Source: Dendrophyllia cribrosa (lineage: Eukaryota > Cnidaria > Anthozoa > Scleractinia > Dendrophylliidae). Taken from it: a stretch of 64,000 nt of DNA. The notes below the pieces were generated by a model, which saw only the letters and a list, made by a program, of their open reading frames with translations, ran no database searches and was not told the DNA's origin. A program made the position numbers and the translations under genes. The stretch spans positions 28,384,210-28,448,209 of the forward strand of contig JAJLRJ010000009.1 of assembly GCA_024195265.1 (NCBI GenBank), given 5' to 3'. Positions 944 to 64,000 of this stretch are shown piece after piece (the stretch's first letter is position 1; the number at the start of each line of letters is the position of its first letter).

Positions 944-1082
944 CTTGTTTGTGAATTGTCACCCGTTGGATTGAGAGGGGATTATTTCCTGCCAGGCGCT
1001 GCTGAGTAAAGTATTTGTCACTTATCCATTCGGTTTTGTTGTTAATAAAGGACTCGTACTTTGATGGTAGTCTGGCATTTTC
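944..1082 (-). CDS. LOX-A exon 3: lipoxygenase domain, W-D-F-Q-G-NP segment
   Basis: This is an internal exon of a lipoxygenase, a non-haem iron dioxygenase of polyunsaturated fatty acids. Read on the minus strand it starts after an acceptor (tgcag) at 1082 and ends at 944 before a GTGGGA donor; the end phase is 1. It encodes about 46 residues starting ENARLPSKYESF and containing TEWISDKYFTQQRLAGNNP. This matches the animal lipoxygenase pattern W..D..F..Q.L.G.NP followed by a basic I/L-x-R stretch. It is 139 bases long, the same as its LOX-B counterpart at 57012-57150, and most residues agree. Many differences are at third codon positions, which suggests both copies were under protein-level selection. 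The next exons lie left of the window. With only 943 bases remaining, I cannot tell whether LOX-A also carries FN2 modules. Confidence 0.82.
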
Positions 1083-1415: not shown

Positions 1416-1767
1416 CCCCACAAGTGGCTCCAATACCGACTGGAAGAACGCTGACATCTTAAGATACTCTGAGAAGTCGTCAATCGCCTGCCCAGAGGTT
1501 TGATTATTGTACTGCTCCAAAACTCCCTCATTGATACGTAACGTCTGCACGTACGCTGTAGTATAGTATCTAGTGAAGGGGTCTTTAGTAACAATACCTG
1601 CCAACTCCGCTTGGGTCATATTTAGCCGGGCGAAGCCATACAAAGCTGGATCATGTTTCAAAGTCCACGTCTTCTTGTTTTCAGCAAGAGCAGAATTTCT
1701 CATGGCCTTACACTCCGGACTAGACTTTTGGGGAAGGGAGACGTCACAGAGAACCGCGGATGCATTC
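1416..1767 (-). CDS. LOX-A exon 2: N-terminal part of lipoxygenase domain
   Basis: The exon runs on the minus strand from an acceptor (tttgtttaag) at 1767 to a GTAAAT donor after 1416. It is 352 bases long and enters needing one base to finish a split codon. The product begins NASAVLCDVSLPQKSSPEC, continues through RNSALAENKKTWTLKHDP and ends LEPLVG, which joins in phase 0 to ENARLPSKYESF of exon 3. The LPQ..SP...R...LA....W pattern is what opens the catalytic domain of PLAT-less lipoxygenases such as bacterial and cyanobacterial forms (family knowledge). It is paralogous to 55000-55348: CDVSLPQ and CEVSLPQ differ mainly at synonymous sites. No stop interrupts the exon. The matching first exon on this strand at 26924-26937 is truncated, so LOX-A may be a pseudogene or use another start. 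Confidence 0.82.
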
Positions 1768-7061: not shown

Positions 7062-9125
7062 ATGAGCATAATTTGATCGCCGACAAGGTGGTCTTCCGTC
7101 TCTGTTCCTGGATTAACTGAACAATCCGACTAAGCAGCAACCCGGCTTTGTCTGCTTAACACTTGCGGAGAAAAAAAGTCAACTTCAAGGCAAAATGTGT
7201 TACAAATGGGTCTTATATTAGCACTGGCAGACACGATGGTCGCTCCTGGATACTAATAAATTTGCGTTGAACTTGTATTCGCTCGTCGGATTATTTTTTA
7301 TGTATTTTGTCCCGCACGCTCTTCAGCGATGTTGAGAACGTGAGTGAATATCCCACGATTTTTAATTTGGCGGCCATTTACGCAGAAAAAGGGCTCGGAT
7401 GCTTTTAGCTGCTCCAACTTTAGACGCAGACGGAAATGGCGCGATATAAATATTTATTACTAGTAATTATTACAGTTTTCTTAAAAGTGGTGAGTGTACG
7501 AATTCTTTCCTAAAGGACACCCGCGAAGGAATATCCTGAGTCAGACAAGCATTGACATGCCCACGTGGAGGTTGTACAAACAACATTTTACTTATAACAA
7601 ATAACCCTAACGAAAACCAAAGAAACTGGCTACAAAATTCTTTTAATAATTTAATTACTTCTGAAAATCCCCTTTGAGGAAAATTGGCTCGTGATATATG
7701 GCCCAAAAGTACAAGCTAACGTGTAAAGACTTGAGGCAATTATTGTCGCTTGTTTCAACGAGAAACATTTTGAATAACGCGAAATTGAAGCTTAAAATAA
7801 GAAAGGAAGCCAAGAAAGCAAAGCTAACTTATATTTTGCCATTTAACAGAGGTATGGCACGAAGATGGCCGCGGCCGCTTAACAGAAATCCACGTTTAAT
7901 ACATGTAAGCGTATCGTCCCAATTGTTTTCCTTGATCAACAAACGACAAGTAAGCGTATCGTCTCAATTTTTTTTCTTGACCGACAAACGATACATGACT
8001 TAATTGGCAAACAGCAAACACAACGAACGGTTATCACAAATAGCAAGTATCTCGCCTCAACATCAATATCTATTCCGGATCAGGCAACAAAATAATGTCG
8101 ACTATGCTTTGAAACAGTACAAATTAGTTCCAAACGAGTGACAAATAGATAAATATGTTAACCTTACCTCGAGAGTGATATTAAACCTCCGATTACGGAC
8201 ACCAATAAGGCCAAACGTCTCATGTTCCAGGGTGGAGCTGGAGGTGAAAGCTTTCCTAATCGTGGGAGGAGCTCTCGTTAGTCTGATTCAACTTACCTCA
8301 GGCCATCGAATGACTGAGCTTCGTTTAAAAAGTGATATTATAATTAAGCTAAGCTGTCCCTAGGTAGCACGAAACTCTTTAAACTATGAATATCTCATTT
8401 CATTGGACCTGGGTATCCCGCAGCTCATATTGTTTTTAGGACTAGGGTCCATTGTTCTGTTGGTCGTTTGTTGTTTTCTCAGCCAATCATGTGACGCGCC
8501 CGGCGAACTGAGGCTGACGTTTTCATCAGTCATGCAAAAACGATATTTGAATCATAACCTAAATCAACACCTTTGTCGAGTTAAGGTGTACCTGTGCGTC
8601 ATGCACCATTATTTTAAAACCACGGAAACTCCAAAAAGGCAATTAATTTTCGAAGGTGATAGTTGTACTAAAGTGTCTGCACGGCTACTTCTCAAAACAT
8701 TAACAGTTCGCTTTTCCGCACAGTTTTAAGCCGAAATATATATATACAAACAAATAAACGCCCGCAGGCGCGACAATTTGTCGGCTTTCGTCTGATGGTT
8801 CTTGAATCTGATTGGCCGTAACACAATAAATTTTCCAGACATATTTTTGGCGTTCTTACCGCGAAACACCTCTTACAAAACTGTTTCCAGAGTGAAGCAG
8901 TTAAACAGGTGAAATCAAACGCCTAGCAATAATTATTGACACAGAAAATGGACAGTGAAATACGGGGTATAAACAATGTTTGAGCAATAGCAAGCATACG
9001 TGGGAACAAATTCTTGATTTATATCGAAAAATGTAGGAGTATCTTTCCTGTTTCAATGAAATTTCGATCTTTCTAAGTTACGCATCACAATTCCAAACTT
9101 TTATAGGGAGTGCTTGGCTAAACTG
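7062..9125. other. LOX-A intron 1: no recognised gene
   Basis: Repeat-poor sequence with several short open frames, none with recognisable motifs or good splice context. A duplicated GTAAGCGTATCGTC motif occurs near 7905-7965. Confidence 0.35.
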
Positions 9126-12579: not shown

Positions 12580-13250
12580 GTATGTAAATAACATGTAAAT
12601 AACATGCAAAGATACTGTAAATGATAATTTACATGTAAATAACATGTAAATCGAAAAAGGGGGGCTATCATGTAAATCGAAAAAGGAACCCTGTAAATAA
12701 CATGTAAATCGAAAAACGGAGCCTGTAAGAAACCCTGTAAATAACATGTAAATCGAAAAGGGGGGCTATCATGTAAATCGAAAAAGGGGGGCTATCCTGT
12801 AAATAACATGTAAATCGAAAAAGGGAGGCTATCCTGTAAATAACATGTAAATCAAAAAGGGGGGCTATCATGTAAATAACATGTAAATCGAAAAAGGAAG
12901 CCTGTAAGGAACCCTGTAAATAACATGTCAATCGAAAAGGGGGGCTATCATGTAAATAACATGTAAATCGAAAAAGGGGAGCTATCCTGTAAATAACATG
13001 TAAATCGAAGAAGGAACCCTGTAAATAACATGTAAATCGAAAAAGGGGGGCTATCATGTAAATAACATGTAAATCGAAAAAGGGAGGCTATCCTGTAAAT
13101 AACATGTAAATCAAAAAGGGGGGCTATCATGTAAATAACATGTAAATCGAAAAAGGAAGCCTGTAAGGAACCCTGTAAATAACATGTAAATTTAAAATGG
13201 GAGCCTGCAAAAGGGGGTTGTCAAGACCATGTAAATAACATATAAAATGA
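12580..13250 (+). repeat. Left subterminal tandem array of the CACTA-like element
   Basis: Many degenerate units of the form GTAAATAACATGTAAATCGA followed by AAAAGGGGGGCTATC or AAAAGGAACCCT. Units are about 30-40 bp and alternate between two tail types. The inverted counterpart is at 21130-21720. Confidence 0.88.
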
Positions 13251-20524: not shown

Positions 20525-20601
20525 GGCCTCGTGGTTCAAGCGGCAGAGCGATCGACGGAAGATCTGATCAGGAGGTCGTGGGTTCGAATCCCACCGAGGT
20601 C
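20525..20601 (+). repeat. tRNA-like sequence (tRNA pseudogene or SINE head)
   Basis: A perfect B box (GGTTCGAATCC), T stem GTGGG/CCCAC, a D stem and a 7-bp acceptor stem (GGCCTCG with CGAGGTC, one G-T pair) can be formed. The anticodon arm does not fold normally and the segment between D and T arms is about five bases too long. The flank continues CTTACTGGGGCTAACGC, as expected for a SINE body. Not a functional tRNA. Confidence 0.55.
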
Positions 20602-21129
20602 AAAGATTTTTTCTTTTCCTCGTGTGGTCCCTTATTTCCTTACTGGGGCTAACGCTTAGTGCAGGGAAATTCATGGGTTGACCTTAGTACTATAATTTAC
20701 ACACAGAGTTAATTCTCTGATTCCTTGTTATTTTTAAATGTTGATTACAGTACGGTAAATGTTGCCAGTCCACAAAAAAATAACGTTTTCATAGTTTGCT
20801 TGCTTCCGAAAGCAAAATTTGCAAATCTGCAAAAGCTGTTTGTCTGTTATGCAGTGTTTATGTGAATAATTAATTTTGGCTGTCAAATTTCTCTGATGAA
20901 TTTTTCTGTTTAATATAGTTTCACAAGAGAGAATGAGGTAAGAGAACAGATCCTCCATACATCTGCTCTCAAGCGAAATCAAACTTGAAATCGCTTTTAT
21001 ATCCTTGAGTTTTTCTACTGAACTGCGTAAGTAAACCTTAAATATCACACATATCGTATCGTGGATTATTGTATTTTCACCGGTTGGCTTAAATGAGCCT
21101 TTCATTCGATTAACATGTTATTTATAACG

Positions 21130-21720
21130 TTCCTTACAGACTCCCTTTTTCGATTTACATGCTATTTACAGGTTAGCCTCCCTTTTTGTATTTACATGTT
21201 ATTTACAGGATAGCCCCCCTTTTTATTTACATGTTATTTACAGGTTAGCCTTCCTTTTTCGATTTACATGTTATTTACATGTTAGCCTCCCTTTTTCGAT
21301 TTCCATGTTATTTACATGATAGCCTTCCTTTTTTCGATTTACATGTTATTTACAGGGTTCTTTATAGGCTCCCTTTCTCGATTTACATGTTATTTACAGG
21401 ATAGCCTCCCTTTCTCGATTTACATGTTATTTACAGGGTTCCTTGCAAGCTCCGTTTCTCGATTTACATGTTATTTACAGGGTCTAGATACTGTAAATGT
21501 GTGTGAAATAATTTCCATGTTATTTACATGTGTCCCTTTTTTCTCACTGTAACAAGAACCATGTAAATAACTATTTACAGTAGATTTACATGTGTGCTCA
21601 AACCTGTAAATTTCATGTAAATTTTATTTACAAAATCCTAACATGTAAATCGCAGTTTACAAAGTATGTAAACCCATATTTACATGTTGTAAATTTATTT
21701 TTACATGTGCATGTAAATTT
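21130..21720 (-). repeat. Right subterminal tandem array of the CACTA-like element
   Basis: The same units as at 12580-13250 but inverted: TCGATTTACATGTTATTTAC followed by AGGATAGCCCCCC or AGGGTTCC. The last 150 bp degenerate into GTAAAT/ATTTAC motifs up to the terminus. Confidence 0.88.
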
Positions 21721-33870: not shown

Positions 33871-33926
33871 ATGAAGTTTCTGTTTGCACTGTTATCATTA
33901 ATTGGAGCCTTGCTAACAGTTTCAAG
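33871..33926 (+). CDS. Duplicate LOX signal-peptide exon (alternative or orphan first exon)
   Basis: Encodes MKFLFALLSLIGALLTVS plus two bases of a split codon, then a GTATGG donor. It is a classic secretory signal: one basic residue, a long hydrophobic core and small residues near the end. It differs from the copy at 49917-49972 by one codon (L versus I at residue 15). The split phase lets it join the lipoxygenase exon at 55000 (AG+G = Arg), so it could be an alternative LOX-B first exon 21 kb upstream, or the orphan start of a third, lost LOX gene. No LOX exon 2 copy lies between it and 49917 on the plus strand. Confidence 0.65.
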
Positions 33927-38109: not shown

Positions 38110-41100
38110 TTTTTTTTTTTTTTTTTTTTTTTAACTTGAACAGCCAATTTTTATTTACAATAAAGTGCGACTACTTACAATACAGTACAGCTAATTACAT
38201 ACTACACAATACTAATATGACTACATACAATACAGTACAGCTAATTACATACTCAAGATACTTACACTATTTACAATAACAATCACGACAGATACTTACA
38301 ATACTAAAGCTACTTACATTATTTACAATACTAATAAAACTACTTACAATACTAACCCAGTTACTTGCTATTAGTTTCGATACTTAAAATAAAATAAAGA
38401 TTACATCCACACCATTCAAACTCATTACTAGGATCTATTTACACGGGTGCAAAGCCCATGCACGGAGCCCACTTTTTATTGAATTTATCCATGCTATTAG
38501 TTTTAACACATATAAACTTTTCTGTTTCATACTTAGTTTTAACCTTTAGTTTAAAGGCAGTTATGCTAGGAAGTGTCTGATTTCTTCTGCAATCCCATAT
38601 ATACAATTTAGCATTCAGTAACAGATAGTTTAGTAAAGGGCACTTTGCGTATATTATTCCAATTATAACGTCTTGCAGGGTGAGATGGAAGAATTCTCTT
38701 GTCAAAAAGTAGAAATAGTATTCAAAATCTTTCCAAAAGCGTTGTACATGGCGACAATCAAAAAGAACGTGGTGGAGGGTTTCCAGTTCCGATTTACAGA
38801 ATGAACATTTATCATCTAAGATGTATCCTATCTTACACAACTTTGTATTGGTAAATAATATTGAATTAAGGACTTTGTATTGAAATGCTTTTAAGTATGG
38901 TTCAAAGGACACCTTATGAGGCAACCAAAAAACACTTTTCCAGTCGTCTTCTGATAAATTAAAAGTTTGTCTCAAATGTTGAAAATAATTTGGGAACTGG
39001 GCTTTTGTCCTTTTGATTAATGTATAGTAATCCTTAGATTTCTTTTTTAACACGTCAAAGTCATTGTTATCTATCGTCAAAGATAGTGAAATTTCCGAAG
39101 GGGCACTGGTCCCATTGTTTGTTTTTAAGTGTGGTGGTACAGAATGACGAAGTCCTGCCCAAATTAAAAAATTAATTTTACTGATTTTACTCGAAATAAT
39201 CTTAAGCGAGGTTGAAGTATCTGTGTCAAATAAAAGATCCTTTACATAAATAATGCCGTTTTCAAAAAAATTCCGATAAAAGATAGGCCTGTTGTTTATA
39301 CGTATTTCTTTGTTATTCCACACTACCAGTTGCCATTCTTTTCCAGTGTCAAAACCGTCACGGAATTCTGACCACCACTGAAGGAGCTCGGAATAAAATT
39401 GGGAAGGAATAGCGAGATCTTTGATATCATAATTGCAATAAAATAAAAAAAGCCCTCCGAAACGCTCCAATGTCACGCGTAAATAGTTTTTCTAAGGACC
39501 CTCATTGTTCCCAAAGATTCTTTTCAGCCAGGCTAGCCGTAATGATTTGATCATACTTTCAAGGTCAATCATTTTTAATCCACCGTTCTCATATTCATTT
39601 ATCGTGGACAGTCTTGTTACTTTATCCGTTCCTTTCCATAAAAATTTAAATAATAATCGGTTTAACTCTTGAACGATTTCCTTAGGGGCAGGCAGAAGTG
39701 ACAGAATATAAACAAATTTAGGAATAAGTAATGACTTGATAATTGTCACTTTGCCATAAACAGAAAGACCTCTGGAAGACCAGATATTTATAAGTTTTTT
39801 AACACTATCTAACCTCTCGATGAAATTTTTCTCGTGTAGCAATTTAATATCATACGAATAATAAACTCCGAGGGCTTTGATAGGTTCGTCAGGCCACTTA
39901 ATACCGAAGGGTTTTGACTTGTTACTTCTGGAAGATCCTACCCACATACCCTCAGTTTTGGATGTATTGATCCTGAGTCCTGACAATTTTCTGAAAACAT
40001 CTAAAAGTTTGAAAAGAACGCGTGCCGATTCTGTGTCTGACAAAACTGCTGTTGTATCGTCAGCGTATTGGAGAAGCTTTGTTTCTTCTTTGCCAATTGC
40101 AATGTCTTTTATCGCTATATTTTGTCGAATTGCTATAGCAAGAGTTTCAACTACAACCACGAATAGATATGGAGAGAGGGGATCACCCTGTCTTACTCCT
40201 CGTTCCAGAGCAAAATAGTCTGTTGTAAGACCATTATTAATAACACAGCTTTGTATATTTTTATACAGTGTCTTAACCCATCGGATAAAATCAGGACCAA
40301 ACCGAAATGCCTCCAAACAGCTAACAAGATAATTCCACTCTACGCTATCAAATGCTTTATGAAAGTCTATAAAAATCATGAGACCTGGGATGTTTTCTTT
40401 AAGAGTAAAATCCATTAAATCGAAGATCGAACGTACAGTTTCACCTATATAGCGATCTTTAACGAAGCCACTTTGGTTGTGATGGATAATATTTGGAAGA
40501 ACATTTTTTATCCTGGTCGCTAAGACCTTAGACATAATTTTTGCATCTACGTTAACAAGGGAGATTGGTCTCCAATTTTCTAAAAAAGAACGATCCTTAC
40601 CTTTTTTTTCGATAAGAGTAATTACTGCTTGTTTCTGGGAACACGACATTTCGCCTTTTTCAAAACACTCATTCGCACAATGAATGAAAGGTTCGCTAAT
40701 AAGTGGCCAGAATGTATTATAGAATTCAACTGGAATTCCGTCATTTCCCGGGGATTTGTTACGTTGAAAACTTTCCAGAACCTTAGCACATTCTTCTGGA
40801 GTTATTTTGCCCTCATACGATAACGTTTGTTGTTCTGTAAGTGTAGGAATGTTTAAATTGTTCAAGAAAAATTCCGTCGCTTGCGTGTTATCTGCATTCT
40901 TATTCTTGCTTGTGTATAATTCTTGGTAAAAACGTTTTTGTTCGGAGAGTATATTAAAGGGATCTGTGACGATCGCACCACTAGTTTTCAATTTTCGCAC
41001 ATGTTTTTTAACATGGTTTCTTTTCTCCAAATTAAGAAAATATTTTGTACTCTTTTCACCATGTTCCCACCAACGCGCGCGTGCGCGAATAATAATACCT

Positions 41101-41765
41101 TGAAGTTTTTCTTCTTAAAGAAGTTCTAATTTTTCTTTAGCCGAATTGAGAACGTTTGCATTGTTGTCATTAGGGTCAGAATCAAATATTTTCTTTGCTT
41201 TATCAAATTCCTTTTGAAGTTTCATCTCTTTTTCTTTTCTTTCCATTGCTTTTCGTTTTGAATGCTGAATTGCGTGAACTCGGATATTATACTTAGTCCA
41301 ATCCCAGATACTTCTATTATCTGTCAATTCATTACGACCTTCTCTCAGCCACATAGGTATTTTAGCTGTTACTTCTCTAACATAGTCTTCATCTTCCAAA
41401 AGCGAGCAGTTCATTTTCCAATGGCCGGGACCTTTGATATTTTTATCACTGATACAGAACTCTATAGAAATGGCTGCATGGTCAGTTTTTATGGCTGGAG
41501 TAATATCCGTCGTTGTAACTAAATCTTGTAAGTTATTTGAAATAAGCCAGTAGTCTAAGCGGCACAGAATCATTGGCGAGTTTTGACTCCACGTAAAGCT
41601 TTTTGTGGTGGGATTTTTCACTCTCCAAATATCAATCAAGTCAAGATCATCACATAAACAATCAATGGTTGATATGACCGATTTCCTCGGTAAAAGTATG
41701 CCTCCTTTCTTGTCTAGCACCGGATTAATTGGGCAATTAAAGTCCCCTCCAAGAAATTTTTTTGT
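38110..41765 (-). mobile_element. 5'-truncated L1/Tx1-like LINE
   Basis: A minus-strand non-LTR retrotransposon: 23-base poly(A) tail (T run 38110-38132), 3' untranslated region with degenerate ACTTACAATACT repeats (38150-38400), and most of ORF2. The 5' end stops within the endonuclease, just upstream of GGDFNC. AAATTTTTTT occurs beside both ends and may be the target duplication, but cannot be separated from the tail. Confidence 0.85.
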
Positions 41766-41775
41766 TATGGAGGGG
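38439..41775 (-). pseudogene. LINE ORF2: endonuclease, reverse transcriptase, CCHC (two stops)
   Basis: One continuous minus-strand frame with two nonsense codons (TAA near 41115, TAG near 39492). Endonuclease motifs: GGDFNCPINPVLDKKGG, CRLDYWLIS, KTDHAAISIEF. Reverse transcriptase motifs: FIDFHKAFDSVEWNYL, GVRQGDPLSPYLFVVVVETL, LLQYADDTTAVLSD (YADD catalytic pair). C-terminal zinc-knuckle-type motif: CSFCKSELETLHHVLFDC. Order and motifs match the L1/Tx1 group of LINEs, whose ORF2 nicks target DNA and primes reverse transcription. The N-terminal endonuclease is missing, so it is dead, but only two stops suggest a fairly recent insertion. Confidence 0.88.
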
Positions 41776-42331
41776 GTTCTTGAAATTTTGAACAGATGAT
41801 GTATTAAATAAAAAAGCAAAAACATAACTACAGTGTACCAATAAGAGCGGGGCACCCCAGATTTCATGGCTGGGAGCCTTTGGGCTCTCTATGATTCTTC
41901 TAAGAGCACAGCCTTGCAAAGTATTTTGGTGCAGTCATGGAGCATGATTTATAATTTTAATTTCTTTATTTGGTACTGCCATAAATGTACACGACATTAC
42001 TTACAGTTTTAACCCATCATTAAACATATTACTGGATTGTAAGAGTATTAAACTGGACGGTTTTAGTGATTGACGTTAAAAGTATTAATTAGGGATGGAC
42101 CATTATTTTTTTGACTGGGGGGTGTTGGAAAATTTTCACATGCAGACATTTTTTTATATGCGGCAGCTGCTGCAAACAATTTGAAATCCTTCCCCAACAG
42201 AACAGGGGGGACCTGAAAAAATCCAGATTCACTAAGGGGGGAACATGAAAAAGAAAATGAAAATTTGTTAATATCTCACCCATACCCCCCCCCCCCCCCC
42301 CCCCCCCCAAATAAATAATGAACGGTCCTTT

Positions 42332-49916: not shown

Positions 49917-49972
49917 ATGAAGTTTCTGTTTGCACTGTTATCATTAATTGGAGCCTTGATAACAGTTTCAAG
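49917..49972 (+). CDS. LOX-B exon 1: signal peptide
   Basis: ATG at 49917 opens MKFLFALLSLIGALITVS, followed by two bases of a split codon and a GTATGG donor. The peptide has the Lys-then-hydrophobic pattern of a secretory signal. Joining AG to the G that opens the exon at 55000 makes Arg and gives TVSR-YTSAQCEVSLPQ, in frame with the lipoxygenase. The start is chosen because it is the only ATG in frame, has TATA and initiator motifs at suitable spacing, and is conserved in the duplicate at 33871. Known animal lipoxygenases are mostly intracellular and begin with a PLAT (C2-like) domain; here the signal peptide leads straight into the catalytic domain, so the enzyme is predicted to be secreted. 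The splice itself is inference from phase and homology. Confidence 0.7.
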
Positions 49973-50935: not shown

Positions 50936-52205
50936 TAATACTAATAAGAACGAATCAAAGCGACCATGGAAGGTTTGCAGGGCGTAGCTGAAACAGTGTT
51001 ACTCATTTATTTTAAACAAACTTACTGTATGTTTAGCAAAGCGCGTGTCGACGCGCTGCTTATATTTCAATACCCCAAATTCGGAAACCTTGAATAAAAG
51101 TTGTGTATGAATATTCACAGTTGATATCAACTTTGGTTCGGTGGTTTTAGTTATCTACGAAAGATCTATAGTTTATTTTTACTTGAGGTGTGTTGTGCAA
51201 TGTGATCAGGTTAATGGTTTTCTGCGGATAAGTAGCGTGCTGACATTAAATATTTCATGTTCTTCGTACGTCGCAATCGATACGTTTTTAGTACTTGAAA
51301 TATCAACAGATTGGCTCACCGGATATTTAGTTGTTAGCTCTGCAGTCTGCTAAAAATTCTTGAACAGTCTGTTTATTGTATTGCATTATCAGCTTTCTTT
51401 GTCATTTTAAAGCTGAACAATTTTTTTAATTGACCCCAAAAGTTTCCACTGATAATTAAAAACCTATTTTATTTAATCGCGAGATAATCTTAGAAACGCT
51501 GAAAACAACGTCTTAGCTCAAAGCAAAATTATCATGTGGCCAAAAATGTGCTCTCTTGTATTTGTTAAATGCATGGAGTTGTTATAAACTGAGGATAGAC
51601 TGCAGACCATGAAAAAGGTTGTAGGCGTCGCAAATAAAAAAATACTGTAATTACCGAAAGAGCGCTTATCAATATGAAAGCGGAAAAACCGTCAGTGACC
51701 AAAACAAGCGCAATATGTGTGATTGCTTTGCAAACTGAAGCCTCACTATATAAATTGTTTTTATTGTTAAAAACGCACTGGAGTGTGAATCCACTTACGG
51801 ACTGAACTAAGCCTTCTCAAGTGCAAAAATTCTTACATAACTTAAACGCACGGCAAAGTTTTCAGCAGCTGCCTTCCCATTACACAAGTTTTGACACTGT
51901 GTATTGGTGCTCGTTGCGCAATATGCGTGCCTCCAGGCTTCTATTTTGTGGATGAAACCCTTAACCTGGAAAAGAAACTAACGAGAAGCTTGGAAAAAAA
52001 TTAAATTTACAGGCGGAGCTCTAAGGAAAACTAGAAACTAGACCTTTTCAGGGCTTTTTTCTCAAGATGTAGCCATGGGACCCTACCTCAAAATTTTAGG
52101 ATTTGGGAAGAGGTTTATATATATAAACATTTATGCAAAAAACAATTAAATCAGGAAGACAGAGTTTTGCTAATGAATTAGAAAATGTCAAATCTTTCTC
52201 ATATT

Positions 52206-53253: not shown

Positions 53254-53770
53254 TAGACCTTGTCACGGTTTCTGACGCCATTTTGGTTTGGGGGCAAACA
53301 CGGCAAAATTTACATTAAATGTATGGGAAAAATCGGGAGTTTGATACTCGATAATTTGAGGTAGGTTGACATTCTGCAATTTCTATGAATAACAAAGTAA
53401 AGATACTTAGCAAAGGATCCTGCTGATCAAATTTAAAGGGTACAGGTTAGCTGAAAAGCGAGAAATCGTATTTTTAATTTTTCTTACAAATGCTTCTAAA
53501 TTTTCCCGCGAACGGCGGCTCGGTTTTACAGACAAATATATGAAAATTGAAAATCTTAATTTGCGGCTTTCTTAGAGAGACTACATTTCTCAAATTTGAT
53601 AAGTAAACTCTTTTAGCTGATATCTTTAGTTTGTAATTCATAGAAATTGCAGAATGTCAACCTTCCTCAAATTATCGAGTATCAAACTCCCGAGTTTCCC
53701 ATACATTAACTGTAAATTTTGCCGTGTTTGCCCCCAACCAAGATGGCGTCAGAAACCGTGACAAGGTCTA
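53254..53770. mobile_element. 517-bp element, TAGACCTTGTCACGG ends
   Basis: The arms are inverted copies for about 150 bp, beginning TAGACCTTGTCACGGTTTCT, with a unique centre. In LOX-B intron 1. Confidence 0.8.
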
Positions 53771-53847: not shown

Positions 53848-54319
53848 CATTCGATATGAATTGCTGTTTATAAAAAGTGTAAGCGAAAAGAAAACAATCA
53901 GTAAATAACAAACATTAGTATATACTGAAACAGTGGATAGCATTGTTGGCGCGCTCTGATTGGCTACTGAAACTCGGAATAGCAAGTGCTATTCACCTCC
54001 CAGCAATTTGCGCGTGAAAATTGTAATCGTTGACAGGAATAAATGAGTTAAAAAGCATCATTTTCGTTATATTATCTCACTACCATTCGATATGAATTGC
54101 TGTTTATAAAAAGTGTAAGCGAAAAGAAAACAATCAGTAAATAACAAACATTAGTATATACTGAAACAGTGGATAGCATTGTTGGCGCGCTCTGATTGGC
54201 TACTGAAACTCGGAATAGCAAGTGCTATTCACCTCCCAGCAATTTGCGCGTGAAAATTGTAATCGTTGACAGGAATAAATGAGTTAAAAAGCATCATTTT
54301 CGTTATATTATCGCACTGT
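53848..54319 (+). repeat. Tandem duplication, 2 x 236 bp
   Basis: Units 53848-54083 and 54084-54319 are almost identical, indicating a recent duplication. Each contains GTTGGCGCGCTCTGATTGGC. Confidence 0.9.
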
Positions 54320-54999: not shown

Positions 55000-55348
55000 G
55001 TATACATCAGCCCAATGTGAAGTTTCCCTTCCCCAGCAGTCCAGTCCTGTCTGTAAACTTACGAGAAGTGCTGCCCTTGCTCAAAACAAAAAGATCTGGA
55101 CGTTAAAACATGATCCAGCTTCGCATGACTTCGCCGTGGTGAATATGACCTCGCAGCAGCTTGCAGCCATTCTTTTGGAGGATCCTTTTACAAGATATTA
55201 CTTAACGCTGTATTCTCAAACTACATCAGCAAGTAGCAAATCGTTCGATTTGTACAACAATATAACCGCTGGACAGGAAATAACCGACATCTCTGAACAT
55301 CTGAGGCTGACAGCGTTTTTCCAGTCTGCTCTGGAACCAGTAATTGGG
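55000..55348 (+). CDS. LOX-B exon 2: N-terminal lipoxygenase domain
   Basis: This exon (residues about 19-135 of the model) lies between an acceptor (ctatcttaag) and a GTAAAT donor at 55349. It encodes YTSAQCEVSLPQQSSPVC, then RSAALAQNKKIWTLKHDP, DPFTRYYLTLY and finally AFFQSALEPVIG. The opening LPQ-SP-R-LA-W pattern is typical of the start of the catalytic domain in PLAT-less lipoxygenases. Its paralogue is LOX-A exon 2 (1416-1767), with one residue fewer and otherwise nearly gap-free alignment. The acceptor assignment is supported by matching AAG/G positions in both genes and by synonymous differences extending up to it. It ends in phase 0 and joins the exon at 57012. Confidence 0.84.
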
Positions 55349-55466
55349 GTAAATACAGTTACTTCTTTAAAAATGTACTGGCGTTTGCAATAAAAAGAGG
55401 TCTTCTACTAGAACTTTTGTTGAATAATGATCTTACGATTACTTTTTCACGTCCATAGACATTATC

Positions 55467-55638
55467 AATAGACCGATTTCGATTGTATTAACATTCATAC
55501 TTGGCTCCGAGGCTAATGAGGGAATAAAACAAAAGAAATGAATAATTCAACGCTGAACCTCAAATGTGATTTCTTTTGTTTTATTTCCCCAAGCTTCGGA
55601 GCCAAGTATGAAGTTTAATATATCGAAATTGGTCTATT
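55467..55638. mobile_element. 172-bp MITE in LOX-B intron 2
   Basis: Ends AATAGACCGATTTCGAT and its complement; internal CTTGGCTCCGA also mirrored. Confidence 0.75.
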
Positions 55639-56044
55639 AAAAAAAAAACAGTTCAGCAAAATAAAATCGGGATACTAAACCTCTCGTGCCATACTGATGT
55701 AATTGTTATACTTTTCTTTTTTAAAGTCGACTGCTAGAAAACGTTCCCTTTCAAATATAATAATTTGCGTTCATATTATTATTAATATATTTTTTAATGT
55801 TGTTATCATCTTGTAAGCACGTTGAGATTTTTTAACGCGAGCTAATTACATTGTTATTATTTGACAGTGAACGTGGACAGCGTGTAAAAATGTGATCATT
55901 GTTCAACGTGGTTTGTAAGAAAGCTAGTAAATGCTTTTCCATTAGCGATTACTGTTAGTCTTCATGCATGAGGCAATTTTTAATAGCATTAGCAGTCGAA
56001 ACGTCGCAAAGTCAATCCATCGTGAGACAAATGAATAGGCATTC

Positions 56045-56425
56045 AAGAAACAAGATGCTGTACACAGCGGCTTGAACTCTTGACGTCCTTAACCCATGCA
56101 TTGCAGTATTGCATGATTCCCGAGTGTTTTGAATGCTTTTACGGAGAAACATAAGCAATTAAAATTATAAAAGTAAGACCACACTAAGAAAGAAACTTCG
56201 ATCGCTAAACAAATTGCAAGTTAAATAGAACAAAAAAACTTGCCGGAACAAAATTCCCACAGCAAAAAGCGGCGAAGACATTATCAAACGGTCGTATTCA
56301 TTCATGAACGTTCGCATTGTCTTGAAAATTTTCAATTGCACGCTGAAATTCTTCCTTCTGCTTCTTCAGTCAAAACACGAAGAGATTTTGCGGTAGGTAC
56401 TTCGTGGCTTAAAGCCATATACATT
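56045..56425 (+). repeat. Dispersed repeat, copy 2 of 3
   Basis: Same family as 22018-22370 and 46770-47780 (shared CCGAGTGTTTTGAATG and AAGCGGCGAA). In LOX-B intron 2. Confidence 0.55.
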
Positions 56426-56877
56426 AAAAACCCGCATATAAGAACCTAAAGATTTAAGAACCTACAGGCTGAAGTTTGGCATTTTAATACTCAATTTTAT
56501 AAGAACCTGTTCAGCCTGGCGAGGAAAAAGAGGTTCTTATACAAAAGATCACTCCAATTTCGATTATCAAAATTCTGGATATTAACTGTATGCGAAACCT
56601 CTAACAAAAAATTATTGAAGACAATTTAAAACATGATTTCCAGTTGATACAGTACAGATGCTTTTCCATAAAGTTATGGTGCATTGAAGACATTTTTCTA
56701 AACCATTATGTACTAGTAGTGTAATATTTCTGTGAATGATTATGCTACGACAAACTCTGAAAAATATAAGAACCTATTAAGAACCTAATCAGCCTGATTT
56801 GTCAAAAAGTACCCTGAAATATAAGAACCTGTTCAGCCTGATCTCGAAAATTCTAGGTTCTTATATGCGGGTTTTTA
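56426..56877. mobile_element. 452-bp element with TATAAGAACCT repeats
   Basis: Ends AAAACCCGCATATAAGAACC and its complement. The motif ATAAGAACCTGTTCAGCCTG or close variants recurs at least five times, also once inverted. In LOX-B intron 2, just upstream of exon 3. Confidence 0.72.
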
Positions 56878-57011
56878 CCATAGTCGTCCCCATAAATTAA
56901 AATATGCGTGCATAAATTTGCATCCACTAATGTGACACACAAAAAAGAGTCCCAGCCAAAAAGATGACTCGTCGGCTATGCCACAAGTAAAAACTTTTTT
57001 ATTGCTTTTAG

Positions 57012-57150
57012 GAGTATGCCAGGCTACCATCCCGATATGAAGCCTTCGCGGACAACAAAACCGAATGGATAAGCGATAAGCACTTTACCCAACAGCGTCT
57101 GGCAGGTCCCAATCCAATGTCACTTAAACGAGTAACCATTCACGGTGGAG
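57012..57150 (+). CDS. LOX-B exon 3: lipoxygenase W-D-F-Q-G-NP segment
   Basis: The exon begins after a polypyrimidine acceptor (attgcttttag) and ends before GTAAGC. It covers residues about 136-181 and encodes EYARLPSRYEAFADNK, then TEWISDKHFTQQRLAGPNP and MSLKRVTIHGG. The W..D..F..Q.LAG.NP..L+R motif is a recognised hallmark of animal lipoxygenases, near the N-terminal side of the catalytic core. It ends in phase 1 (GGT GGA G). In LOX-A the homologous exon (944-1082) ends at the same point and phase. The following exon is not lipoxygenase but an FN2 module, so this intron is the site where foreign modules entered the gene. Confidence 0.86.
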
Positions 57151-57199
57151 GTAAGCCGTTACTGGGCAACCAACGATCTTCAAAACGTAACTCTTGTGA

Positions 57200-57485
57200 C
57201 TAGTAAAGGTCACACATAGTACAGTCGAACTTGTCTCCTGAGCGACCACTTTTCCAAAATACTAATTTTCTTCCAGTCAAATAAATATAAGTCGAATTGA
57301 ATTATGTGTTGCAGGAAAACGAAAAGTTTGTCAACTGCATAAAAAAACACGTCAATATGATACAATATTTTGCGCTGATAGATGCTTTGCACATTGAAAT
57401 TGCTAGTTGATATGATTCAAAGTCAAGACCCCTGTACGTGGTCTGACCTCTCGTAAGCGACCACCTCCCGTAAGCAACCACCGGT
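57200..57485. mobile_element. pogo/Tigger-like remnant in LOX-B intron 3
   Basis: ACAGTCGAACTTGTCTCCTG-type start at 57221 and GACCTCTCGTAAGCGACCAC near 57445 resemble degenerate pogo-type ends. Confidence 0.35.
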
Positions 57486-57660
57486 GGCTTTGTATTTTGT
57501 GTGATCAAGGCAAACCAGTAAGACACATTCTGGAACTCATTAATAATTCATCAAGTTGGAACAAACAAAATCGTGACGGTGGTTTGGTTTATTCCTTCTT
57601 TTCTCTTAATTCAATGTTCAGTTTCAGACTACATCAGACACTCGAAATAGAAATGTTTTT

Positions 57661-57690
57661 TTATTATTATTATTATTATTATTATAGTTA
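57661..57690. repeat. (TTA)n microsatellite
   Basis: Short ATT/TTA run. Confidence 0.85.
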
Positions 57691-57954
57691 TTATTGGTAT
57701 GTATTTTAACAAACCCTTAGATGAGTCTACAAAATTATTTTAGCATTTTCATGTTTAGTACTAAGACTTTCTAGCGCAGAGTCTTCAGTGGAAAATGATG
57801 AGAATTTTTAAGTTATGTCTTTAGGGACATATGTTGATCCTTGCAATACACTGAGTATTTATAGTGGTGAAGTCAAAGCGATGAGACAGATTTCGGTCAA
57901 GTTTTCTTGTCATTTTTTCGTTGTGGTGGTTGTGATTAGGATGTTAATGTTGAG

Positions 57955-58215
57955 TTGGATGGAGATGACGAGGATGAGAATGATGCTGCTGCTGCTGATG
58001 TCGATGTCGACGACGACGACGACGACGACGATGATGCTAATGATGACAATGGTAATGGTGGTGGTGGTGCTGCTGCTGATGTTGATGTCGATGACGATGA
58101 CGACGATAATGCTGCATGATGATGACGATGGTAATGGTGGTGGTGCTGCTGATGATGATTGATAATGATGATAACTATGATGCTGATGACTATGATGGTG
58201 AAGGTGGTTGTGGTA
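57955..58215. repeat. (GAY)n-rich trinucleotide repeat
   Basis: Interrupted GAT/GAC/GCT/GGT triplets upstream of the first FN2 exon. Frames across it are low-complexity; no splice context makes it an exon. Confidence 0.8.
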
Positions 58216-58285
58216 GTACCCGAGGGTAATAATGAGTTATGACGATGGTGGTGAAGTAATTCTACCTTACGTTTGTTCCAAATAG

Positions 58286-58444
58286 AAAAGAGAAGATGTA
58301 CAGTGAAGACTACCGACGGCAGATGGTGCCATTTTCCATTTATTTATCGCGGTAAACTTTACCGCAAGTGTACAAGTGTTGGCCATAATAAGCCTTGGTG
58401 TTCAACAACGGAAAAATATTATGGCAGATGGGGAAACTGCAAAG
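58286..58444 (+). CDS. LOX-B exon 4: first fibronectin type II module
   Basis: A 159-base exon, phase 1 at both ends, between acceptor caaatag and donor GTAACA. It encodes EKRRCTVKTTDGRWCHFPF, then IYRGKLYRKCTS, NKPWCSTTEKYYGRWGNCK. The C-x-FPF, Y..C, WC and W-G-x-C pattern is the fibronectin type II fold, known from matrix metalloproteinases 2/9 and seminal plasma proteins, where it binds collagen, other matrix components or phospholipid head groups. FN2 modules have four conserved cysteines; this one has a fifth near its start. Being an extracellular disulfide module, it agrees with the signal peptide. Its entry and exit phases match the flanking lipoxygenase exons, which supports insertion in the same transcript rather than a separate gene. 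Confidence 0.83.
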
Positions 58445-58761
58445 GTAACAAAGAAAATGTTTGAACGTTAATTTATTCTTAGTGACGATTAATAAAGTTA
58501 AGAAAACAAGGGGAATGTGAGCAGTACAAAAGCAATAAGGCAAACAATAGACTCATATTATTGTGTTCAGGCTTAACAAGTTAGCCATGAAGTTGCAACA
58601 ATGTTGACGATAATAAGCCTTTGTTTTTAACAAGTAATTTTGGAAGATGAGGAACCTTCGAATATATCTTTACCACAATGTATCCTAACATGAATGGATA
58701 ATTCCGTTGTTGCTATTTGAATTGTATACTTATTTATGTTCTTTATTTTTTGCCTGTTTAG

Positions 58762-58782
58762 AGAGCGAGAACTCGGAAGAAG
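58762..58782 (+). CDS. LOX-B exon 5: 21-base acidic linker microexon
   Basis: A strong acceptor (ttttttgcctgtttag) and a consensus GTAAGT donor bound a 21-base exon in phase 1-1. With the flanking G it encodes ESENSEE. It separates the two FN2 modules. Support comes from the splice sites, phase and similarity to the later acidic microexon at 61685. A microexon cannot be proven from sequence alone. Confidence 0.62.
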
Positions 58783-58972
58783 GTAAGTCGATTTCTCATT
58801 TGCTTCTTTTCCTAGCTGTTTATTATAGTGAGGAAACAAGAATGGAGGCAAAGTTTATTCCTAAATAAAAAATAAGTAAATATCGATTGAATTATGGTAA
58901 ATAAAATAACAATTTCACTGACGAGTCTACGGAATTGCCGTTGATATAATTTTTAATTAACGAACCATCTGC

Positions 58973-59553
58973 CCCATTCGGCCTGGTGGGGGGGGGGGGG
59001 GCACAAAGTGCCCGCGCTAACTTTTAACATTCATAACTTCTTTAATATGTATTCAAACGCCATCAAACTTTGTGACTTTTCCTAAAATTTATCTGGCAAC
59101 AATTTCATATGACAATTTTCTGATCACGTGACTTGACGTTTCCATGGCAACAAGATTTTGACAGCTATGTTTTTGGAAATTTGCATATTTATACTTTTGA
59201 ATGAAGAAAAAACAATGTTTATTAGTATAACTTTTGTATTTTTACGTCATTTAGCGTTTATTTATTGGTTTTTATTAATTTTGCGTCAATTTGGACGGTT
59301 TTTAAGAGGTTTTAAAAAAATTCAGAAATCCAAGATGGCGGATCCAAGATGGCGGCCGTATAACTAATTACCTAATAACTACGTCATATGACGTCATCAT
59401 TCCATTGTGCGGACCGCAAAGGAGACAGTTTTGGACGTATTATGTACCCTCTAGGTTTCATTGTCATAGCCTTAATGTTCTTGAAGTTACGAAGGCGGAG
59501 CACAATGTGCCCCCCCAGGCTCAGGAACTCAAAACAAGCCCAGGCCGAATAGG
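58973..59553. mobile_element. ~580-bp element, CCCATTCGGCCTGG ends, in LOX-B intron
   Basis: CCCATTCGGCCTGG and poly-G are mirrored by poly-C and CCAGGCCGAATAGGG; GCACAAAGTGC and GCACAATGTGC flank inside. It lies between the acidic microexon and the second FN2 exon. Confidence 0.65.
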
Positions 59554-61017
59554 GTGGTTAAACAAAAGAAGCAGAGGGACACTGGTGTTAAGTATGGCGG
59601 GTGTCGCGTTGAATGTTGAAAGTGAATTATCATCCGTTTTGAATTTGTACCTTCGAGATTTTGTTCTTAAATCCTTGAAGGACAAGCTGAGAGAATGTAT
59701 TAGACCAATTATTTGTTTTGCGAGAAGTAGCTCTCGCTCTGACCAGCCTGGTAGAAGTTATTCAAAGAGCGTTTTTTTACCCAAAATATTCGAAGCTCAA
59801 AATATTCGAAGCTTTCTTTGAACTTGGAGTTAATCTCTTTGGCAAAATATTGTGAAGCCGTATTGTTGCACAGTCAGTTACTTTTCCTTGTAATTTTAGA
59901 ACGGTCATGAGTTCGGCGAGGAATCTTTCCACAATTTCGTGACCCTTGCCTCTGCAGAATGGATGTTTATTATTCCGACGTTCTTAATAAAATCTGCTAA
60001 AATAATGCTTTCAGCTGCAGCTCTTTCCACAGTGCACCTACAGTTAAACTGGTTTCGCAAAAGTAGCAATAATTTCGTTAGCGACATGTCAACTTGCCAT
60101 TTTTTACTGATCGGAAAACCAAGCATTTTTACCACAAATCCCCACCCCCCCTTCCCCGGGATTTTTTTCTAGCCGCAGACTTTGCGAGTTGCCGCCTTCG
60201 TATAATTCCAGCCAAGCCCCAACTAAAAACAACAAGAAACGTGATTTTCGGAAAAAATCTGATTGGCTACATTTTTCGATAACATCGCTGATGACAGATT
60301 TTTTAATTTGGTGGCGGCAGACGGCTCGTTAAATAAATATATCAGGCGTTTTTCCCCTTTTCACTGCGATACCATGGTCTGGCGGGGAAGCTCTTTTTCG
60401 CAACTTACGTTGAATTTCCCGACATTCTTTGGGCCAAACTTTGTCACCCTATGTCCATTGAATGTCCCGACATGCTTTGCGACTTCACGAACACATTCAC
60501 TTCGACGTCATGCACACATCAGTTTCTCCCCTCTTTTCTTCTTTCCACGCGCTCTGCCGATTTTAGCTTTTAAGAAAAGAGCGCCGGATCGCAGGTAACA
60601 CTTGACTAATTCGTCTCAGTGCCCAGGCCCCTTTTTAACTTGTGAATACGCGAAGCCTTGAACAAGTTATACCAGTGGGACAATATTTCACTGGATGGGT
60701 CGAACCGCTGTTACCACTGAGCCCGCGAAATGTAATAGTCACCTGTCTTACCCATACGGACGGCGTTGGAGGAAGGGGAGAGTGGGGAGTTGGACGCAGG
60801 GGGTGGGGGCCGGTGAAGCAAATGTCAAGGAGAAGGGAGGTCTGAACGTTTAGTATCCACGAGTTGGCCCATAGAAGCTTTTGATTTGTATCTTACTCTG
60901 GATACAGCGTCGATGAATAATTGCTGAATAGATGCACGGAAAATGCAATCTATGTTCTTCAAGAACGTTGTTCATAATATTATTAATATGACCCTAATAC
61001 TTGTTGTTCACTTTCAG
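59554..61017. other. LOX-B intron 5, unassigned
   Basis: Several short open frames on both strands with no recognisable domain. No further FN2 copy was found. Confidence 0.4.
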
Positions 61018-61179
61018 AGGCGGAGGACTGCAGTATTCAGACAACAAAAGGTGAATGGTGCCATTTTCCATTTACCTACCATGGAAAAGTTTACCACAAG
61101 TGTACCAGTGATTACCATCATAGACGTTGGTGCTTGACTACGAAAACGTATACTAGAGGCAAATGGGGAAATTGTAAAG
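61018..61179 (+). CDS. LOX-B exon 6: second fibronectin type II module
   Basis: A 162-base exon, phase 1-1, between acceptor cactttcag and donor GTAAAT. It encodes EAEDCSIQTTKGEWCHFPF, then TYHGKVYHKCTS, RRWCLTTKTYTRGKWGNCK. It is clearly a paralogue of the module at 58286, with the same FPF, Y-KC, WC and KWGNC landmarks and the same extra N-terminal cysteine, so it arose by duplication of the exon or by import of a tandem pair. The two copies have diverged at many positions but kept all cysteines and aromatic residues, suggesting both are functional. Confidence 0.83.
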
Positions 61180-61684
61180 GTAAATATGTAGGAATAATCT
61201 ATGTCATGATATTCTACAACAGGCGTGCCCAAAAAAGGGACGTTATAACTATTTCCATACCTCTGTTGACGTAATTGATCAGACTTTGTGACAAATCAAT
61301 ATGCATGCAAAGTGACCAGGATGAATGTAGTGAGGACGAGGCCCTATGATGTCTAGAAGAATTGTGCAAAACATGTTCTTACTCACTTTCTAATTTTTTA
61401 CTTTTACTTTCATTAAGTTGACCTTTGAAAAAGACAAAGCGCTGAATTTGCAAATACAGACCAAAAAGAAGCATGCAAAACTTGCTTCAAGTTCATTAAA
61501 AGACTCAAATCTGTTTCATAAAAAAGAAGCGCGGAAGACAAGTATCGTACGGTAGTCTTCCATCGCATTACCCTTGTTAATTTATTTCAAAACCATAATG
61601 AGGTAGATTAAGCGCCTTTTTTTCAATATAATTTCTTGTTAATGCATTTATGTTGGAACTGATGTAGCTTTTCTTTTCTTTCAG

Positions 61685-61714
61685 GAAATGAAGAGAAGGA
61701 AGAAAAAGAAGAAG
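61685..61714 (+). CDS. LOX-B exon 7: 30-base acidic linker microexon
   Basis: Bounded by an excellent acceptor (cttttcttttctttcag) and a GTAATC donor, this 30-base phase 1-1 exon encodes GNEEKEEKEE. It has the same relation to the second FN2 module as the 21-base microexon has to the first, so the inserted unit looks like FN2 plus acidic linker, present twice. The charged spacer probably keeps the modules clear of the catalytic surface (inference). Confidence 0.62.
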
Positions 61715-61836
61715 GTAATCTAAAAATGCACTCCCTCAGTGGTTCATATGTATCTTTATACCAATGGTATCATGGTGATGATTAGATGACGTGACATTTA
61801 TCGGAGAAGTAACTAGTTCGTTAAAAAATATGCGAC

Positions 61837-62310
61837 TTTAAAGTGCACCTAACCCCCAATTTTCTTTTCCTTTTAAACAACTCAATGTATGTTAAACAGT
61901 CGAATAGTGAAATATTTCTTGTTTTTAACGTCGCGTAAGTGACTTTTAGAGATTTGAATTTACAAAATGCTAATTAGATTACGTCAAATCAAGACTTTAC
62001 CATTATTTCTACTTCAATTTACAATACGCAGTTCACAGCTTAAGGATAATCAATTTAAGAAATACGAAATAAAAACTGTTAATAGTCAATTGATTTGTAA
62101 AAAAAACATTACTTGGAGGTGGCAAAAAGTAGTTGTATAATAAACGATTCTTGATTTGACGTCATCTTATTAACATTTTGTAAATTCAAACCTCTATAAT
62201 TCACTAACGTAACGTTAAAAACAAGGAGTATTTAGCTAGTCAACTTTTCAACGCACATAGAGTTGATTAAGCGAAAAAAAAAAACAATTTTGGGGTTAGG
62301 TACACTTTAA
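61837..62310. mobile_element. 474-bp element, TTTAAAGTGCACCTAACCCC ends
   Basis: Inverted ends (right end GGGGTTAGGTACACTTTAA) with extended internal symmetry over about 150 bp. In the intron before LOX-B exon 8. Confidence 0.75.
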
Positions 62311-62595
62311 ATGTTTGGGGAATAACGAGAAGGCAATGTCACTGTTTTACATTCGCTACAGGATACCCCTTGCTACTGATGTCCTCGGAAGCTAAAAGGG
62401 ACAAGCAGTCGGAACCACTGACTTTTCCTTTGCTCTTTTTGTAGTTCAGGAATATGTATACAAAAGGCGAATGTCTAGACCAATCAAAGTGCAGGATAAG
62501 TACACAAAAGGGCAGAAAAAGGAGCTATATGTAGTGACTTAGGGATATAGAAGCCTTCCAATTTAACAAGTTTTTCCTTCTGTTCCTATATACAG

Positions 62596-62702
62596 GACCA
62601 ATAGGACTGGATTGGAACAAATTGGATGAAACACTGAATCCCAACTTTGACTGGGAAGCCGCTGTACAAGCGACACTAAAAACTGAGGACTCTTTGGAAG
62701 AG
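62596..62702 (+). CDS. LOX-B exon 8: lipoxygenase domain resumes
   Basis: After acceptor tatatacag the reading frame continues (phase 1) as GPIGLDWNKLDETLNPNF, then DWEAAVQATLKTEDSLEE, and stops at a GTTATC donor in phase 0. The amphipathic helix followed by L..+DSLEE fits the lipoxygenase segment before the conserved AI..G+IF+.D(Y/F) region, expected in the next exon beyond 64000. It therefore belongs to the same domain as exons 2-3, so the FN2 modules interrupt the domain rather than flank it. The model to this point is 341 codons without a stop. Identification rests on position and pattern, weaker than for exon 3. Confidence 0.68.
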
Positions 62703-64000
62703 GTTATCTTTCTTTCTGCTTCTAATAATTAATATGCATGTTTGAGGATTTTCAATTCAGCTAAAAGTTACCACTCCAAGCACACATTTATCCCTCGTAG
62801 TTTCTTGAACGACACTATATGCAAAGCTGACTCACAAACAAGACATGATTATTACTACAGTCGAACTTTTACTAACGGCCACTTCTCTACAACGGCCACT
62901 TTGTTTTTGTCCCGGCGGACAGTCCATACATTCACTCTTGTTTTTACCTCTCTACAACGGCCACATCTCCACAACTAAAGCGCGTCCAGGCTACCAAAAT
63001 AACCTCTCCACAACGGCCACTTTATCAACGACTGACGAACAGTGTTTTGGCGTACAGTAATAAAAGGTTAAGAAACCTGATCCGTACTGCGCGACGTCGA
63101 GCTGTACCGTATCTAACAAGGAGCCCGATGGGCTTCGAAACTGGCTCGTTTGGCCTCAGTTTCCACGCACCCGGTTTTCACTTTTGAGTTTTATATTAGC
63201 AAGCCACAATATACAATCTAGAATCTATCAATATGCACAGTCCAGTCCACAGCCCGCTTCAAGCACTCCTTTCTCTGATCGGCTCGGTACTGTTAGAAAA
63301 AACATAAGTTTAGAACTTTGTATATTTTTTTCGCTTTAAAATCCTTGAAACCACCTACTACAAGGAATCAGGATTGTTCAAACACAGGCATTTTGGAGAA
63401 TCGGTGATGGGGCAATTACCAAAAAAAAAATTCCTGCACAGCAAAAGTAAAGAAAAAAAGGAATGAACAGCAAGCTAAAGGAAAAAGGGTATGGAACAAT
63501 CCCGAAAAAAAAATTATTGTACAACATCAAGACGGAACATTATCAGAAAAATTGCCCAACACGCTCGCTACCACCCCCCCCCCCCCCCCCACCCTCCCCC
63601 CCCCCCCTCTCCCCGCCGACAAATATAAAATTGTCCATCCCTTTGCAGGCTACAATTATTCCAAGTCTATATTTTTTCTCTGATCGGCTCTGTACTGTTA
63701 GCAAAAACATAAGTTTAGAACTTTGTATATTTTTTTCGCTTTAAAATCCTTAAAACCACCTACTACAAGGAATCCCAATTAATTTCACTTCTTTCGGATT
63801 TTTGCCTTTCATGAATTTTTATTTCGTGAAGTTGAAGGAACAGAACAGCCAACTGAAAATTCACCGCCGTCGGAGAAGATGTAAACAATGCACGTGTCTT
63901 GCGAGTTTCGCTGGCGCTAGTGAATGTTTCTCGAGCGAACCTTAAAGCGATCACTTTTTCATTTAATTTTCTTTTCTGTGTTTCGGATACAGAGGAATAA
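62703..64000. other. LOX-B intron 8 start; repeats only
   Basis: Contains repeated CTCTACAACGGCCAC motifs (62855-63060), probably a pogo-type remnant, and poly-C (63573-63606). The next lipoxygenase exon was not found before the window ends. Confidence 0.45.
63276..63776 (+). repeat. ~100-bp direct repeat pair, about 400 bp apart
   Basis: 63276-63373 and 63678-63776 are nearly identical (TCTCTGATCGGCTC...CTACTACAAGGAATC). They could be remnants of a target-region duplication or flanking repeats of a small element. Confidence 0.8.

Follow-up and report, generated by a model that had tools for sequence, protein, structure and literature searches.

We identified in the genome of the stony coral Dendrophyllia cribrosa a gene, hereafter gene A, in which a lipoxygenase (LOX) catalytic domain almost certainly carries two FN2 modules together with their acidic linkers. 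The part of the gene described here lies on the plus strand of a 64-kb stretch of contig JAJLRJ010000009.1 (positions 28,384,210 to 28,448,209; GenBank assembly GCA_024195265.1), which is the whole stretch analyzed here and is referred to as the window. The interruption of a LOX catalytic domain by two FN2 modules, which a sequence-only reading of the window had proposed, is real and present in several stony corals. Comparison of the sequence with those of its homologs placed the insert in the loop between the strand that ends in NPMSLKRV and the GLDW segment.

Exon structure of the LOX-FN2 gene

The exons of gene A are as follows, with homologs given by their P numbers.

55000..55348, plus strand, LOX exon 2, start of the mature protein and N-terminal part (70% identity to P0001 12-134, tblastn)
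57012..57150, plus strand, LOX exon 3, ISDKHFTQQRLAGPNPMSLKRVT, ending in phase 1 at the insertion site (88% identity to P0001 135-182)
58286..58444, plus strand, exon of FN2 module a (FN2a), phase 1-1 (Pfam fn2, PDB comparison)
58762..58782, plus strand, acidic linker exon 1, 7 codons, phase 1-1 (matches the linker in homologs)
61018..61179, plus strand, exon of FN2 module b (FN2b), phase 1-1 (Pfam fn2, PDB comparison)
61685..61714, plus strand, acidic linker exon 2, 10 codons, phase 1-1 (the linker here distinguishes P0020 from P0024)
62596..62702, plus strand, LOX exon after the insert, GLDWNKLDETLNPNFDWEAAVQATLKTEDSLEE (56-79% identity to seven coral homologs; 66% to P0001)

All seven exons that had been read from the sequence were confirmed at their coordinates; the six introns are GT-AG introns, and the joined frame is free of stops over 322 residues. 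The intron after 55348 is in phase 0 and those after 57150, 58444, 58782, 61179 and 61714 are in phase 1, and the phase 1-1 character claimed for the four inserted exons (159, 21, 162 and 30 nt) was borne out. Given that the inserted pieces are symmetric phase 1-1 exons within one phase-1 intron, their gain, loss or skipping keeps the reading frame. At 62702 the donor has an unusual sequence (GTTATC) but is the sole GT ahead of an in-frame stop and agrees with the homologous boundary. The frame of the exon at 55000 requires a preceding exon ending in AG, and thus 55000 is not the start of the gene.

The LOX and FN2 exons are each matched separately, and in order, by coral proteins that carry both LOX and FN2 (tblastn), and P0001 matches the two FN2 exons individually with 65 and 77% identity; the linker exons are too short for a tblastn match on their own. 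A domain search of the 322-residue joined protein recovered one half of the proposed architecture: two stretches matched Pfam fn2 (97.6 bits, with a cut-off of 22.2; 4e-28), but the LOX part of this window fragment gave no match to Pfam LOX (PF00305). An alignment to P0001, which bears both PF00305 and PF00040, covers 99% of the joined protein. When the FN2 exon translations were compared with the window by tblastn, nothing significant was found beyond the two modules themselves (best other E value, 0.23), and no exon with iron-ligand residues was found by tblastn before the window ends at 64000. Just upstream of the LOX exon at 55000, a 236-bp unit occurs in two tandem copies with 99% identity (53848-54317).

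Homologs and isoforms

A search of approximately 5.8 billion proteins returned 40 proteins and a profile search returned 97, both searches reaching only relatives that have exact five-residue words in common. The best matches with both PF00305 and PF00040 were from Porites lutea, Oculina patagonica, Montipora capricornis and M. foliosa. All named rows of the profile search with both domains were stony corals, and those of Actinia and Nematostella were without FN2. PF00305 was found in each of eight homologs scanned (E value of 2.3e-38 or better), and PLAT (PF01477) was absent from all eight coral proteins scanned. By motif, 36 FN2 modules were counted in twenty LOX-type proteins or fragments, six of them at the same insertion site in P0041 of M. 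capricornis. A recent one-off insertion in the D. cribrosa genome is ruled out by the relatives in Porites, Montipora, Oculina and Desmophyllum. The FN2-less LOXs of Pocillopora (P0022), Acropora (P0034), Nematostella (P0079) and Actinia (P0072) have in common with these proteins a CxVSLPQ-like start, an NP....VT stretch followed by a G..W region and a PNG[IV]QT end, but they lack FN2 and have a short loop at the insertion site. Two further relatives should be mentioned. The gene model P0042 of Actinia tenebrosa (1274 amino acids) has two LOX units in one protein, and P0103 of Endozoicomonas sp. Mp262, a member of a coral-associated genus, is a bacterial LOX with a weak match to the coral LOX family profile (2.3e-14).

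The entire fusion is held by short contigs, i.e., a 2,443-base contig for P0007 (742 amino acids; cluster of 33 sequences) and a 2,173-base contig for P0047 (679 amino acids; cluster of 46 sequences). These contigs are most simply cDNA, because the first part of the window gene alone takes more than 7 kb. Contigs of 2.2-2.4 kb with the complete fusion contradict the possibility, raised with the original proposal, that a transcript of their own accounts for the FN2 exons, and the single proteins and contigs carrying the whole fusion likewise contradict a separate nested FN2 gene. Transcripts that skip the FN2 exons had also been named as a result that would speak against the fusion; skipping models do exist, but models that include the exons exist beside them. 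In M. foliosa, P0005 and P0046 have 182 residues before and 448 residues after the site in common, and a 114-residue insert with two FN2 modules in the former stands against one residue in the latter. P0008 and P0019 are likewise an in/out pair, with a difference of 54 residues, and P0020 and P0024 of M. capricornis differ solely in an 8-residue linker at the place of acidic linker exon 2. Because of the identity of the flanks and the isoform names, each pair is taken to derive from one gene. The number of FN2 modules at this one site varies from 0 to 6, which, together with the in/out isoforms and the symmetric phase 1-1 exons, supports the earlier claim that the modules were acquired by exon shuffling.

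Catalytic residues and probable secretion

The proteins belong to the LOX fold. In an alignment of 58 proteins out of a set of 103, without P0012 and P0041, H443, H448 and H630 (P0001 numbering) were kept in all 58 rows and N634 in 57, and the stereo-control position was Gly in 45 rows, Ala in 11, and Val and Ser in one each. Each of the 14 FN2-bearing rows has all four side-chain iron ligands, and 13 of them have Gly at the stereo-control position, the exception being P0007 with Val. Excerpts of a 2018 study state that Gly at this position predicts R products in stony corals and that, in its authors' view, sequence is of almost no value for predicting LOX specificity (PMC5793058). A first AlphaFold model based on 26 rows (mean predicted local distance difference test score of 71.2) was replaced by a second based on 58 rows. 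The best match in both sequence and structure was the 8R-LOX/AOS-LOX of Plexaura homomalla (PDB 2fnq, 3fg1, 4qwt, 3dy5), which is similar in its catalytic fold and ligand positions but differs in having an N-terminal PLAT/C2-like domain (title of 2fnq) and no FN2 insert.

A scan for hydrophobic leaders ending in AG|GT gave six candidates for exon 1, three of which resembled coral leaders; one of the three probably belongs to a paralog on the minus strand, described below, and the other two are on the strand of gene A.

33871..33926, plus strand, candidate signal-peptide exon 1, MKFLFALLSLIGALLTVSR, ending in AG|GTATGG, phase 2, presumably joined to the exon at 55000 (pattern scan, donor check)
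49917..49972, plus strand, second candidate for signal-peptide exon 1, differing from MKFLFALLSLIGALLTVSR in one residue, presumably joined to the exon at 55000

The leader at 33871-33926 is similar to those of homologs, e.g., MKRLIFLLSLIGGLITASR of P0002, and the second candidate sits in a duplicated block with 88% identity to the block of the first. Three other plus-strand candidates (65-99, 52075-52112 and 53323-53360) were set aside solely for their unlikeness to coral leaders. The likely signal-peptide exons and the hydrophobic leaders that are present, as judged by eye, in the homologs support the claim of an extracellular LOX, and the LOX-FN2 protein is probably secreted.

Origin of the inserted modules

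Two LOX trees were built from the set of 103 proteins, with 39 and 36 rows that include the two window genes; the smaller tree omits P0083, P0010 and P0011, which are long or partial. Among the proteins in neither tree are FN2-less Montipora isoforms (P0019, P0020, P0024, P0043-P0046, and P0048) and P0023, and P0015 was kept and scored as lacking FN2, although its model may have skipped the exons. The FN2-bearing rows fell into two coral groups (support 88/83 and 90/90), with at least six changes of FN2 presence. This pattern fits either an early gain before the split of the groups, followed by losses, or repeated gains. In the tree of FN2 modules, those of the LOXs formed one group (98/88) relative to three modules of one MMP9 protein and three of P0102, and the forks within the LOX group were mostly weakly resolved. 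Among 383 modules compared, which were the returns of three protein searches, the best non-LOX match to the window modules was P0104 of M. foliosa (62 and 61%), a ten-module FN2 array that has no enzyme domain. Coral FN2 arrays are therefore a plausible donor pool.

Possible role of the FN2 pair

We consider it probable that, as a whole, these observations are best explained by a secreted LOX with an FN2 docking cassette. The FN2 pair, on flexible acidic tethers, would dock the enzyme onto choline phospholipids of the cell surface, as in PDC-109, or onto collagenous matrix, and would thereby take over the job of the PLAT/C2 domain in other animal LOXs. Docking would bring the enzyme to polyunsaturated fatty acids released from the membrane, and the isoforms, which carry 0, 1 or 2 modules, would represent soluble or docked versions of a single enzyme. 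The chances that the FN2 pair docks the enzyme at all appear even; docking to choline lipid in particular is a tentative part of the proposal, and as a target choline lipid would be about level with matrix.

The case for choline lipid comes from PDC-109, a binder-of-sperm protein without an enzyme domain, whose phosphorylcholine contacts are given in excerpts of PMC2823774 as Y30, W47, Y54 and W58. FN2a aligns gaplessly to PDC-109 domain a, which FN2b does not, and the Tyr/Trp/Tyr/Trp contact set is complete in both window modules. The set was also found in 21 of 36 coral LOX modules, compared to none of six MMP9 modules from two species.

Several observations weigh against this reading. The contact set is missing in the other 15 coral LOX modules and is present in two of the three modules of P0102, another kind of protein whose third module is cut short, and it is thus not diagnostic. 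The closest solved FN2 chains by score were MMP9 and MMP2, albeit with three repeats each, rather than PDC-109; as a whole chain MMP9 scored above PDC-109 for both window modules, and for FN2b PDC-109 was a weak match that ranked 21st of 25 chains. Several relatives are without FN2, so the modules are not essential to LOXs of this family, and the gene model P0012 of Oculina, which is outside the alignment, is without the NPMS flank and the stretch with the first iron-ligand His. The iron-ligand exons of gene A fall outside the window, and the name lipoxygenase for that half therefore rests on homologs. In addition, the in/out isoforms are database gene models, and the binding and activity of FN2-bearing LOXs are predictions.

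It is possible, if on the doubtful side, that the FN2 pair tethers the LOX to collagen or other matrix, in the manner of MMP2 and MMP9, rather than to membrane lipids. In these metalloproteases three FN2 modules are nested inside the catalytic domain, as is well established, and it is their modules that gave the top PDB scores; moreover, Tyr at position 30 is common to the window modules and those of fibronectin, which are known collagen binders. However, position 30 is Phe in all six MMP9 modules from the two species, and FN2a, with its gapless match to PDC-109a, is without the two-residue insertion of the MMP and fibronectin modules, which does not hold for FN2b. The two targets are also not exclusive, given that excerpts of PMC2823774 report binding of collagen by PDC-109b.

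We consider it improbable that the insert binds nothing and is simply tolerated as a passenger or spacer. A passenger would fit with the varying module number, with the absence of modules from the Pocillopora and Acropora relatives and with degenerate modules, such as P0016, which fails Pfam fn2, and the odd module 1 of P0007. Positional identity of the modules points both ways: of modules 1 and 2 of each partner, the counterpart by position is the one closer to window module 2 in only two of seven partners, but the one closer to window module 1 in six of seven. Retention of FN2 modules in corals of both tree groups argues against a passenger, as do the nonsynonymous (dN) and synonymous (dS) divergences between FN2a and FN2b (dN of 0.24 and dS of 1.34 by NG86; YN00 gave no value).

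A catalytically dead or non-oxygenase LOX fold that serves as a scaffold is slightly less probable still. The C-terminal residue was Thr, Ser or Asn instead of Ile in 44 of the 58 aligned rows, and no stony coral LOX had been characterized according to excerpts of the 2018 study (PMC5793058). Thr was the commonest residue (40 of 58), and the same excerpts describe the C-terminal residue of stony-coral LOXs as usually Ile or Thr. Against a dead enzyme, the excerpts also give Thr as the C-terminal residue of the P. homomalla 8R-LOX, and the FN2-bearing rows keep the iron ligands and, with one exception, the stereo-control Gly. Lastly, an artefact, in which a separate FN2 gene lies in a LOX intron or the exons were misjoined, might be suspected from the long introns, the unusual donor at 62702 and a D. 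cribrosa fusion known from genomic DNA alone, but it is very unlikely given that the whole fusion occurs at the same place in single proteins and short contigs of other corals.

Paralog and other elements in the window

With the LOX exons of gene A as queries, tblastn revealed a paralog, hereafter paralog B, on the opposite strand of the window.

8168..8223, minus strand, likely signal-peptide exon of paralog B, MRRLALLVSVIGGLISLSR, presumably joined to the exon ending at 1767 (pattern scan, donor check)
1416..1767, minus strand, LOX exon 2 of paralog B (59% identity to exon 2 of gene A; 74% to Porites P0017)
944..1082, minus strand, LOX exon 3 of paralog B, 139 nt, donor CAAG|GTGGGA, phase 1 (tblastn)

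The two genes are arranged head to head, and the 139-nt length and phase-1 end of exon 3 are common to both. Paralog B is visible up to exon 3 only, and its possible FN2 region would lie beyond the edge of the window. Over exons 2 and 3 the two genes differ with dN of 0.26-0.28 and dS of 1.19-1.45, and dN far below dS points to selection on the protein sequence, although dS is close to saturation and calls for caution.

The window also contains a non-LTR retrotransposon-like unit on the minus strand (38442-41888), in which endonuclease-like and C-terminal open stretches flank a reverse-transcriptase-like stretch of 540 amino acids, so labeled by eye. Minisatellite arrays of a related 37-bp unit occur in opposite orientation at 12692-13156 and 21141-21481, and a tRNA-like element with an ambiguous anticodon, possibly a tRNA-derived repeat, is at 20525-20602.

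Significance of the LOX-FN2 architecture

LOXs, in which corals are rich, produce lipid signals of inflammation and wounding. The earlier statement that no LOX of this kind had been described agrees with the literature searched, although the databases already hold such proteins. No description of FN2 within a LOX was found in a search of the full-text literature by title and abstract opening, which covered no preprints, few subscription papers and in part only the best matches. Two of the papers listed, on Plasmodium LCCL proteins, contain both lipoxygenase and fibronectin type II. The word fibronectin is absent from the main text of PMC5793058. Fusion proteins are, however, already in NCBI, several of them under the name polyunsaturated fatty acid 5-lipoxygenase-like, and both domains are recognizable in these entries. 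What is new is thus the description and not the sequence.

If the proposed explanation is true, a secreted LOX with an exchangeable cassette in its catalytic domain would be a case of enzyme retargeting by exon skipping, and FN2 would provide a second route, besides PLAT, for bringing LOXs to membranes. The architecture is also a clear example of modules shuffled as exons into a catalytic domain, on a par with the gelatinases. A bolder proposal, which we hold to be speculative and rather unlikely in full, is that the phase-1 intron in the LOX domain is a plug-in slot, where alternatively spliced cassettes of 0 to 6 FN2 modules replace PLAT and retarget a single secreted enzyme, which could be soluble, docked on membranes or docked on matrix. 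In that event, a single gene would set where extracellular oxylipins arise.

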